A stretch of DNA of 64,000 nt from Paracoccus laeviglucosivorans (GTDB lineage: Bacteria > Pseudomonadota > Alphaproteobacteria > Rhodobacterales > Rhodobacteraceae): the NCBI RefSeq assembly GCF_900182695.1, contig NZ_FXTK01000001.1, forward strand, positions 1 to 64,000. Reading direction: 5' to 3'. Below the pieces are notes generated by a model. It ran no database searches. It was not told the DNA's origin and saw nothing but the letters and a program-made list of their open reading frames with translations. The translations under genes and the position numbers were made by a program. Below, in pieces: positions 34,113 to 37,841 of the stretch. Every line of letters begins with the position of its first letter. Positions within the stretch are counted from its first letter, which is position 1.

Positions 34113-35078
34113 TCACGCCTTGCCGAACATCCCCTTGGCCATCCCGATCGCCGGAGAGATGACGTAATTCGCAATCGGGATCAGCAGGAACCCCAGCAGC
34201 AGGCCAAAGATACCGTCAAAGAATGCCGTGGTCGCCCATTCGGCCAGACCCGGCGCGGCAGGCAGCGCGGCGGCTGCGGCCTGCGCCATGTGATGCACCC
34301 ATTCGTAAGGCTGGTGCTGGCCCAGTTCGTGCAGCCCGTGAACCACGATCTGACCGCCGACCCAGATCATCGCGGCAGTGCCCACGATGGTCAGCACCTT
34401 CATGAAGCCCGGCATGACATGCACGATACCGCGCCCCAGCCCCGCCAGCACCCCGCCGCGTTCGGCAAGATGCAGGCCAAAGTCATCCGCCTTCACGATC
34501 AGCGCGACAAAGCCGTAAACGGCGACGGTGATGCCGATGCCGACGATGGCAAGGATCAGCGCCTCTTTCCATAGGGGGTCGCCGTCGGGGATCGCGGCCA
34601 GCGCGATCGTCATGATTTCGGCCGACAGGATGAAGTCGGTCTTGATCGCGCCCGCCACGCGCTCCTCCTCCAGCCCGGCGCCACCGTCGGGCGTGGTCTG
34701 CAACTGGGGTTCGTTGACTTCGTGATGACCAAACACATGCGCGACCTTTTCCGCGCCTTCAAAGCACAGATAGGCACCGCCCAGCATCAGCAAGGGCGAA
34801 ATCGCCCAAGGCGCAAAGGCCGAAAGCAGCAGCGCGATGGGCAGCAGGATCACCAGCTTGTTGAACATCGAGCCGCGCGCGATCTTCATCACGATGGGCA
34901 GCTCGCGCTTGGCGGAAAAGCCGTGGACATATTTCGGCGTCACGGCGGCATCGTCGATCACTGCCCCCGCAGCCTTGGCCCCCGCCTTGGCCGCCTGCCC
35001 CGCCACATCGTCCACCGACGCGGCGGCGATCTTGGCGATGCCCGCCACGTCATCCAAAAGCGCCAGCAATCCGCTCAT
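34113..35078 (-). CDS. DUF808 family membrane protein
   Basis: The 321-residue protein is a DUF808 (YedI-like) multi-pass membrane protein. The N-terminal L-A-L-L-D-D-V-A and the R-E-L-P-I-V-M-K-I-A-x-G-S block, then the C-F-E-G-A-E-K-V and A-G-A-I-K-T-D-F-I-L-S-A-E-I-M blocks, are family signatures. About seven hydrophobic segments are present. The role is unknown. A 22-residue upstream extension is rejected because AAGG sits nine bases before this ATG. It diverges from nothing nearby and follows the sigma/anti-sigma fusion on the same strand after 92 bases. Confidence 0.9.
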   Translation of the reverse strand: MSGLLALLDDVAGIAKIAAASVDDVAGQAAKAGAKAAGAVIDDAAVTPKYVHGFSAKRELPIVMKIARGSMFNKLVILLPIALLLSAFAPWAISPLLMLGGAYLCFEGAEKVAHVFGHHEVNEPQLQTTPDGGAGLEEERVAGAIKTDFILSAEIMTIALAAIPDGDPLWKEALILAIVGIGITVAVYGFVALIVKADDFGLHLAERGGVLAGLGRGIVHVMPGFMKVLTIVGTAAMIWVGGQIVVHGLHELGQHQPYEWVHHMAQAAAAALPAAPGLAEWATTAFFDGIFGLLLGFLLIPIANYVISPAIGMAKGMFGKA

Positions 35079-35170
35079 GTCCCAAGGCCTTTCATTCACG
35101 ATCCGTTGAACCGGAGATTTGGGCAAGGAACGCGACAAGAGCAAGACGGTTCAACGCCTTGCCCACGTTT

Positions 35171-36169
35171 CTAGGGCGAATTGGGCAAATTCAACGGAGA
35201 GATGGCCATGATCGGTCCCGTTGCCTGCCCGTTGGGCGATCCGCCCTCGGGTTCGTCGGACAGTGCGATCTGGACGCCATCCTCGGGGTTGATGGTGCGG
35301 GGCAGGTCGCGACTGACCTCGCCCTCTTGCTGGGGAACAAGGCCCAGCGACACCGGGGGGGCGTCGCCCGGCGGCATCCACCAGATTTCCCAATCCCGCC
35401 CGACCGGCGCGGCCCCGCTTTGCAGCGCGACATGCATCCTGCGGTCGTTCAGGCTGAAATCGACGCGCAAACCGGCGGGCTGTGACACGATCTGCGTCTG
35501 GTAATCCTTGCCCGAGGCCGGACGCAGCAAAGGCACCAGCAGCACTGCCGCGACCGCGATCACGACGGCAATGGCCCCTAGCAGCGGCAGCGGGCGCTGC
35601 CACCAGCGGATGCGGGCGTCCAGCACCTCGGCAAAGGGGGGCTGGGCATGGCCCAAAGCCTCGCGCATCCGCTGGCGGGCACGGGCGGGCGGCATCACAG
35701 GGGTCAGCGCCAAGGCGTTCCGGGCAAGCTGTTCCTGACTATCCCGAACGCGGCGGGCGAAATCGGCGTCGCTATCATGGCGCGCCGCCGCAGCTGTTGC
35801 CGCGTCGCCTGCCAGCGCCGCCAGCGCGAAATCCGCAGCCAGCGCGTCATCATCGCTGGATGTCACCCTGGCTTCGGGCAGTTGTTCGCCCCGCGCGCGC
35901 AGCCGCTCGACCGCCTGCCCGCGTGCCTGCGTCATCAGCCACGCCATCGGCGTCAATCCGCTTGCAGGATACTGCCCTGCCTGACGCCAGACCGCGACGA
36001 AGGACTGCGCCAGCACATCCTCGGCCTCGGGCCGGTTGGGCAAAAGCGACAGGATCAGCGCGTAAAGCCGGGCCGAGGTCAGGTCGTAAAGCCCATCAAA
36101 TGCGGGCCGGTCGCCTTGTGCGGCACGCGCGATCAGCTCGTCCAGTTCGATCAGCCGGGCATCAGACAA
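35171..36169 (-). CDS. Sigma-region-2 fused to RskA-type anti-sigma, no region 4
   Basis: The 332-residue protein starts with an ECF sigma region 2 (about 12-92: A-F-D-G-L-Y, N-R-P-E-A-E-D-V-L-A-Q-S-F, A-W-L-M, R-G-Q-A-V-E-R-L-R), but lacks the linker and region 4. From about 106 (D-D-D-A-L-A-A-D-F-A-L) it reads as an RskA-type anti-sigma: a helical N-domain, one transmembrane helix (193-216) and a periplasmic domain ending in E-G-G-S-P-N-G-Q-A-T-G-P. In most genomes these are two adjacent genes. No stop or frame break is seen. TTG with AAGGA upstream is the likely start; an ATG 108 bp earlier would reach toward cobS. The role is uncertain. Confidence 0.8.
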   Translation of the reverse strand: MSDARLIELDELIARAAQGDRPAFDGLYDLTSARLYALILSLLPNRPEAEDVLAQSFVAVWRQAGQYPASGLTPMAWLMTQARGQAVERLRARGEQLPEARVTSSDDDALAADFALAALAGDAATAAAARHDSDADFARRVRDSQEQLARNALALTPVMPPARARQRMREALGHAQPPFAEVLDARIRWWQRPLPLLGAIAVVIAVAAVLLVPLLRPASGKDYQTQIVSQPAGLRVDFSLNDRRMHVALQSGAAPVGRDWEIWWMPPGDAPPVSLGLVPQQEGEVSRDLPRTINPEDGVQIALSDEPEGGSPNGQATGPIMAISPLNLPNSP

Positions 36170-36330
36170 TGGGGCGCGGTCCTTTCTTTCCGGTGGTCGG
36201 TTCAATCTAGGCGCCACCTTTGGGCGGGTCAACGAAACCGCACGGCGGTATTCCGCCCACGCCCGAGACGCTTGCACGTCACCCGCAAATGCGCGAACAA
36301 GTCTTTCGTTGCGAGGAAAGGGCCCCGAGG

Positions 36331-37305
36331 ATGCTGGACGTGAACGCCAAACCCACCGAAGAGATCGACCTGCGCGAGGTTTTCGGCCTCGACAGCGACA
36401 TGAAGGTGAAGGGCTTTGCCGACCGAACCGAACGTGTCCCCGAGATCGACACCACCTATAAGTTCGACCCCGACACCACGATGGCGATTCTGGCGGGCTT
36501 TGCCTATAACCGCCGCGTGATGATCCAGGGCTATCACGGCACGGGGAAATCCACGCATATCGAACAGATCGCCGCGCGCCTGAACTGGCCCTGCGTGCGG
36601 GTGAACCTTGACAGCCATGTCAGCCGGATCGACCTGATCGGCAAGGACGCGATCAAGCTGGTCGATGGCAAGCAGGTCACGACATTCCACGAGGGCATCC
36701 TGCCTTGGGCGCTGCGCAACCCGACCGCCATCGTCTTCGACGAATATGACGCGGGCCGCGCCGACGTGATGTTCGTGATCCAGCGCGTGCTGGAGGCCGA
36801 CGGCAAGCTGACCCTGCTGGACCAGAACGAGGTCATCACGCCGAACCCCTATTTCCGCCTGTTCGCGACCGCCAACACCGTGGGTCTGGGCGACACGACC
36901 GGCCTTTACCACGGCACGCAGCAGATCAACCAAGGCCAGATGGACCGCTGGTCGCTGGTCTCGACGCTGAACTATCTGTCGCATGACGCCGAGGCCGCGA
37001 TCGTTCTGGCCAAGAACCCGACCTACAACACCGAAAAGGGCCGCAAGATCATCAACCAGATGGTGACCTTGGCCGACCTGACCCGCACTGCCTTCATGCA
37101 GGGCGACTTGTCCACGGTCATGTCGCCGCGCACGGTGATCGCATGGGCGCAGAACTCGCGCATCTTTGGCGACAATGTGGGCTATGCCTTCCGCCTGACC
37201 TTCCTGAACAAGTGTGATGAGCTGGAGCGCCAGACGGTCGCCGAGTTCTATCAGCGCCTGTTCGACGAGGAACTGCCGGAAAGCGCGGCGGTCAAGGCGG
37301 GGTGA
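36331..37305 (+). CDS. cobS: Cobaltochelatase subunit CobS (AAA+ ATPase)
   Basis: The 324-residue protein is the AAA+ subunit of aerobic cobaltochelatase, which with CobT and CobN inserts cobalt into hydrogenobyrinate a,c-diamide in B12 synthesis. Walker A is G-Y-H-G-T-G-K-S-T at 67-75 and Walker B I-V-F-D-E-Y-D at 134-140; the sensor region [11 protein letters not shown] follows. The start is the ATG of M-L-D-V-N-A; a 37-residue upstream extension is not conserved. CobN is not in the window. Its stop overlaps the next gene's ATG (TGATG). Confidence 0.97.
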
Positions 37306-37841
37306 TGAACGCGATAGATGCCACAACAATGACTGGTGCCGCAGGCGAGCATCTGGTCATGTCGCGGCTTCTATCGCGCGGATATATCGCCGCTCTGGCA
37401 CCTCAGGGCGTCCCCAACTTTGACATCGTGGTTACCTCGGTGGAAGGCACACAGCTTTGTGCCTTTCAGGTAAAAACGCGGTGGGACAAGGGCAGCGATG
37501 GCGGCTGGCATATGAGGCAGAAGCATGAAAGCCTGAGAAACCCTCGGATTTTCTATTGCTTCGTCGATCTTGGCAAAACTGCATCTGCATCTGCGTCGGT
37601 GCATGTTATTCCAAGCGCGACTGTCGCCGATGTGGTTCAGATCAGCCATGCAACTTGGCTTTCCAAGCCCGGAGCGCGCGGGCAAAAGCGTAACGATTCA
37701 AGTATTCGTCGCCTTTTGCCCGACTACGAAAGGCTAATGGGTCCCGAAACACCCTATCGACTGGGATGGCTGGACCGGTATCTTGAAAATTGGGATCAGG
37801 TGGCTGCAATAGCGCAACCGGCTCCTGCAATCGAAAAATAG
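37305..37841 (+). CDS. PD-(D/E)XK-like hypothetical protein between cobS and cobT
   Basis: The 178-residue protein has an N-terminal pattern like restriction-endonuclease-fold nucleases: G-A-A-G-E (Glu15), then a hydrophobic helix, N-F-D-I-V-V (Asp40) and Q-V-K-T (Gln56, Lys58), that is E...D...QxK. The C-terminal half is unassigned. It could bind DNA or RNA, or be an inactive scaffold. Its ATG overlaps the cobS stop, and cobT starts two bases after its own stop. Its base composition looks visibly less GC-rich than the flanking genes, suggesting acquisition after cobS and cobT were already adjacent. Function is unknown. Confidence 0.72.

Follow-up and report, generated by a model that had tools for sequence, protein, structure and literature searches.

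A single open reading frame beside cobS in the genome of Paracoccus laeviglucosivorans (G000) joins sigma region 2 to an RskA-type anti-sigma factor and has no region 4. It lies in a window of 64,000 nucleotides, the whole stretch of DNA that was analysed. With region 4 absent and the DNA-melting and core-binding residues altered, the fused protein would be unable to act as a sigma factor. The reading we favour, at about an even chance, is that the sigma factor has been retired, survives in cis within a membrane protein and no longer directs transcription. We propose that a SigK/RskA-type pair beside cobS lost region 4 and became a single gene in the ancestor of G000 and G032, another Paracoccus species. 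A single helix would anchor the product in the inner membrane. RskA_C would then lie outside, and on the inner side sigma region 2 would sit next to the anti-sigma linker and helix 4, which in known complexes bind region 2; here region 2 would be retained in cis, serving helix 4 as a structural partner. The protein would still be made, a vegetative-type promoter having apparently been kept. Since that promoter is kept and the protein is under purifying selection, a non-transcriptional role at the membrane is most likely, with the membrane helix and RskA_C as its main carriers. What the data show directly is the anatomy, the orthology, the residue losses and the selection; the docking in cis, the loss of polymerase binding and the membrane role are inferred.

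Anatomy of the fused reading frame

Profile searches of the kind that the earlier note had proposed placed Sigma70_r2 at residues 28-94 (E 2.9e-8, 33.8 bits) and RskA_C at residues 199-320 (E 5.7e-15, 56.2 bits), both past the Pfam cut-offs of 24 and 29.4 bits. The NCBIfam sigma models matched over only about their first 100 positions, all below cut-off, and the NCBIfam anti-sigma model NF052375 matched residues 110-312 with 68 bits, below its cut-off of 100. The closest solved structure to region 2 was SigK of the SigK/RskA pair (4nqw, 1.1e-13). A single hydrophobic helix was detected, at residues 191-221, with 111 residues C-terminal to it. The frame lies on the minus strand, which the earlier note had left unstated, and is open throughout; the earlier description of a sigma region 2 and an RskA anti-sigma with one membrane helix in one unbroken frame is borne out by Pfam, NCBIfam and hydropathy. 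A single-sequence AlphaFold model of the protein (pLDDT 48, pTM 0.25) was not used.

The absence of region 4, also claimed in that note, holds. No region 4 was found in the frame by Pfam, NCBIfam or a genus-built profile, and since only ~12 residues separate the end of region 2 (at about residue 95) from the start of the anti-sigma domain (at about 107), a region 4 of ~60 residues cannot fit. Compared with an ECF sigma factor, the protein has region 2 and lacks both region 4 and the conserved core-binding and -10 melting residues. Compared with RskA-type class I anti-sigma factors (ASDI), it has a predicted four-helix domain (70 bits) and a membrane helix with RskA_C outside, and G000 has no separate cognate sigma gene. 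Nor is it a hybrid of the IutY kind, in which a complete sigma factor is joined to a membrane anti-sigma part, region 4 being absent.

Table 1. Coordinates of the fused frame, its parts and its surroundings in the window
Feature	Position	Strand	Remarks
Fused ORF: sigma region 2, anti-sigma domain, membrane helix and RskA_C	35171..36169	-	332 aa, TTG start
Sigma region 2, residues 12-92; core-binding and DNA-melting residues altered	35894..36136	-	profile matches, residue mapping
Junction, residues 93-108, expected site of region 4	35846..35893	-	no region 4 profile match
Anti-sigma domain helices 1-3, residues 107-154, partly eroded	35708..35851	-	limits by alignment, not structure
Anti-sigma linker and helix 4, residues 154-173, kept	35651..35710	-	consensus retention
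Membrane helix, residues 191-221	35507..35599	-	Kyte-Doolittle
RskA_C extracytoplasmic domain match, residues 199-320	35210..35575	-	Pfam
cobS, divergent neighbour, anchor for finding the orthologous locus	36331..37305	+	
DUF808 membrane-protein gene, downstream neighbour	34113..35144	-	
-35-like TTGACC	36227..36232	-	
-10-like TAGATT	36204..36209	-	spacer 17 bases
AAGGA, likely ribosome binding site	36180..36184	-	

The locus across Paracoccus

Of 125 Paracoccus genomes, 122 gave a cobS match, and the survey covers these 122. In each, the stretch upstream of cobS was read and its open frames were scored with profiles for region 2, region 4, the anti-sigma domain and RskA_C, all four built from 34 ordinary Paracoccus pairs. 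The locus was present beside cobS in 65 of the 122 genomes, on the same contig in 64 cases and at the ends of two contigs in one (G130). Ordinary sigma and RskA pairs (type A) occupy 37 of the 65 loci. Two normal genes in relatives, which the earlier note had counted as a refutation, are thus indeed seen, but they show the ancestral arrangement at the locus and do not refute the fusion. Type B (10 loci) has separate sigma and anti-sigma genes, the latter ending after the membrane helix, a truncation point confirmed in 3 of the 10. In type C (16 loci), region 2, the anti-sigma domain and the membrane helix share one frame without RskA_C; there is little or no region 4, with a weak match of 14-26 bits in 11 of the 16. 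G000 and G032 form types D and E, one locus each, and are the sole two proteins of exactly the make-up described here. The fusion is therefore found in relatives, where the note had suggested looking for it, as one-frame genes in G032 and at the 16 loci without RskA_C, and the series from ordinary pairs to stumps is graded. The anti-sigma parts of all 16 type C loci and of the three type B loci checked stop right after the membrane helix, leaving no sensor outside the membrane.

The locus is absent from the remaining 57 genomes, in 51 of which the DUF808 gene starts at most 300 bases from cobS. No credible remnants were found in these 57; weak matches in eight (best 3e-4) were judged to be chance. 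Between cobS and cobT in the window, an ORF of 179 aa (37302-37841, plus strand) carries a stretch, QVK, that looks nuclease-like by eye, and gave no Pfam match at 1e-3.

Upstream of the locus, a -35/-10-like pair (TTGAC, 16-20 bases, then TAA or TAG) was present in 58 of 65 regions, against 0.4% of shuffles. Judged by its sequence, the pair resembles a housekeeping promoter, and expression would not need to depend on the lost sigma factor.

Residue positions in region 2 are given in E. coli RpoE numbering, and the altered loci are the 28 that are not type A. We take N80 and N67 of RpoE to serve -10 melting, and Q51 and E52 core binding. All 37 ordinary sigma factors keep N67, N80 and Q51; among the altered loci N67 is kept in none, N80 in four and Q51 in 10. 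The changes in G000 are Q51A, E52Q, N67S and N80G. The loss is concentrated in regions 2.3-2.4, where the positions of the type A consensus are retained at 0.99 in A, 0.52 in B, 0.50 in C, 0.48 in G000 and 0.29 in G032, against 0.77-0.86 for the rest of region 2 in the non-A types.

In known complexes of class I anti-sigma factors, the partner of helices 1-3 is region 4 and that of helix 4 is region 2 (PMC7406223). Retention of the anti-sigma consensus in helix 1, helix 2, helix 3, linker and helix 4, in that order, was 0.98, 0.88, 0.96, 0.94 and 0.92 in A; 0.89, 0.78, 0.82, 0.87 and 0.86 in B; 0.66, 0.25, 0.72, 0.92 and 0.90 in C; 0.70, 0.80, 0.83, 0.83 and 0.90 in G000; and 0, 0, 0.08, 0.83 and 0.80 in G032. 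From this contrast we conclude that in type C and in G032 the part of the domain that binds region 4 declines together with region 4, and the part that binds region 2 persists; the contrast is clear in G032 and slight in G000. Helix 4 adjoins the membrane, and its retention may serve that instead.

The docking positions F22, Y26, A35, E47 and W58 of region 2 are each kept in 27 or 28 of the 28 altered loci, which may reflect fold constraint, and Q51, also a helix-4 contact position, is mostly changed. Special conservation of the face that docks helix 4 was not borne out: retention of the face against the remainder of region 2 was 0.84 versus 0.77 in the 16 fusions and 0.62 versus 0.77 in G000, and the face is not better kept than the rest.

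Selection and history of the fusion

The main rival of the reading in which a retired sigma factor survives in cis is slow decay, in which the pair had become useless, fusion and residue loss were steps to deletion, and the frame is open by chance or RskA_C alone matters. We regard this as a serious possibility, though one that falls short of even. The absence of the locus from 57 of 122 genomes shows it to be dispensable, the graded series down to stumps fits such a course, and in G032 most of the anti-sigma domain is gone as well. The rate of change points both ways. By NG86, with confidence intervals from bootstraps, dN/dS in region 2 was 0.03-0.14 for type A pairs (9 pairs), 0.14-0.31 for type C pairs (9 pairs) and 0.52 for G000/G032 (95% 0.28-0.92), a raised value as decay would have it; RskA_C of G000/G032 gave 0.18. 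Against decay, all these values lie below 1, and bootstraps of region 2 reached 1 in only 0.9% for G000/G032 and in at most 0.2% for the other pairs without G032. Region 2 is still under purifying selection in the fusions. Furthermore, the matched domains of the 65 loci showed neither frameshift nor stop codon, and a crude neutral simulation left a 331-codon frame open in only 5% of runs at 0.2 changes per site, 1.7% at 0.4 and 0.7% at 0.6. The earlier suggestion of a decayed locus is right in so far as sigma function looks lost; the purifying selection and the want of any broken copy speak against the rest of it.

A tree of cobS, cobT, DUF808 and GH25 places G000 and G032 as sisters (support 99, and 100 on codon positions 1 and 2), and they also group by RskA_C (95 protein, 98 DNA) and by region 2 (80 and 89). 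In a tree of cobS only, the two stand apart with weak support, and constraining them together gave a log-likelihood 5.5 better. On these trees the simplest reading would be a single fusion in the ancestor of G000 and G032, after which G032 lost most of its anti-sigma domain; two separate fusion events are possible. A single clade of all fused loci was rejected (p 0.006; 17 of the 18 in the tree), so the fusions of types D and E have an origin separate from those of type C, unless the locus was transferred from one species to another. The 16 fusions without RskA_C were not rejected as one clade (p 0.095; 15 in the tree).

Alternative roles, known systems and meaning

A different role would be that of an anti-sigma factor acting in trans on another ECF sigma factor of the cell, which we consider unlikely. 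Helices 1-3 are fairly complete in G000 (0.70-0.83 of consensus) and its genome has further ECF sigma genes. The conserved tryptophan of helix 3, however, is a serine in G000, the region-4-binding bundle is lost or eroded in G032 and the 16 other fusions, and the nearest other sigma factor is only 33% like the lost partner and, by eye, apparently has a ChrR-type anti-sigma factor of its own.

That 33% comes from a search of G000 with the ordinary sigma factor of G009, in which the best match was the fused locus (63%, region 2 only) and the next a different, ordinary ECF sigma. The intact sigma gene elsewhere in the genome that the earlier note had thought worth looking for is thus not there in any form resembling the lost partner. 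The ordinary ECF sigma gene that came next in the search lies on contig C20 (L207 1162-2657) and is followed, by eye, by a ChrR-like anti-sigma gene. RskA_C occurs once in G000. A frame on contig C38 (L212) with a good region 4 match and no Sigma70_r2 match gave the first impression of a lone region 4 partner; read by eye, it may instead be an ECF sigma whose region 2 is poorly matched.

About as unlikely, in our view, is that region 2, tethered to the membrane, acts as a dominant negative by competing for RNA polymerase core, or does so after release by intramembrane proteolysis, the first of which the earlier note had raised. The main core contact surface lies within region 2 alone. According to PMC7406223, regions 2.1-2.2 bind the clamp helices of beta prime. 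D48 is kept in G000, and IutY shows that cleavage by Prc and RseP can activate a fused sigma/anti-sigma protein (PMC8999054). The equivalents of Q51, E52, N67 and N80 in G000, on the other hand, are A, Q, S and G, with R for E52 in G032, and region 2 adjoins the kept helix 4, which in known complexes covers the core-binding face of region 2 (PMC7406223). A sequencing or assembly error, by which region 4 might have been removed, is rejected as the cause and scarcely credible: G032, a different species with about 31-46% protein divergence from G000 and further in-frame change, has a one-frame fusion too, which makes an assembly slip very unlikely.

Several points weigh against a retired region 2 serving as cis partner of helix 4: the co-loss is weak in G000, the docking face is not specially kept, Q51 is mostly changed, region 2 changes faster in G000/G032 (0.52 versus 0.03-0.14), and the make-up is found in two proteins only. 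A broader version, which we advance tentatively, is that in Paracoccus an ECF sigma/anti-sigma pair has become one membrane protein on repeated occasions, region 2 and helix 4 forming a domesticated intramolecular module with a new, non-transcriptional role.

In the split sigma factor SigO-RsoA of Bacillus subtilis, two soluble partners jointly form a working sigma. The likeness is that regions 2 and 4 are not in one protein (PMC10141391, in part); the difference is that, viewing the candidates collectively, we saw no clearly orphan region 4 partner in G000. Sigma/anti-sigma hybrids as such are already known (IutY, ECF48/52/53 and some ECF36; PMC8999054). IutY of Pseudomonas putida (ECF243) likewise comprises in one protein a cytosolic ECF sigma part, one membrane segment and a periplasmic part, but its sigma works, being freed by Prc/RseP in iron cell-surface signalling (PMC5411451 and PMC8999054); the Paracoccus fusion has no region 4, changed key residues and RskA_C as partner domain. 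ECF48/52/53 of Actinobacteria are ECF sigma factors with a C-terminally fused, membrane anti-sigma-like part, which is however of the zinc-finger kind with extensions up to 400 residues, and the sections of PMC8999054 used here describe none without region 4. SigK/RskA of M. tuberculosis (4NQW) shares the closest region 2 structure, RskA_C and the class I anti-sigma domain, but consists of two proteins with a complete sigma and working regulation (PMC7406223 and PMC7509140).

Beyond the genus, a family-wide search gave matches in 185 of 394 genomes and, among the matches listed, with at most five candidates scored per genome, no single match other than that of G000 combined region 2 with RskA_C. 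A scan of genome contigs gave one weak locus (Marinobacter, 27%, region 2 only); of 138 plasmid records with a match, one covers at least 80% of the query and is annotated as two genes. In the open-access literature searched, we met no report of a sigma/anti-sigma hybrid lacking region 4 or of the Paracoccus series.

Within a single genus, the locus offers a natural gradation at one site from a working pair to single-chain proteins that keep region 2 without the essentials of a sigma factor. It makes it possible to study the use of region 2 and anti-sigma helix 4 apart from transcription, and bears on how signalling pairs retire. It also carries a warning for annotation, since proteins labelled sigma or anti-sigma factor at this locus may be neither.
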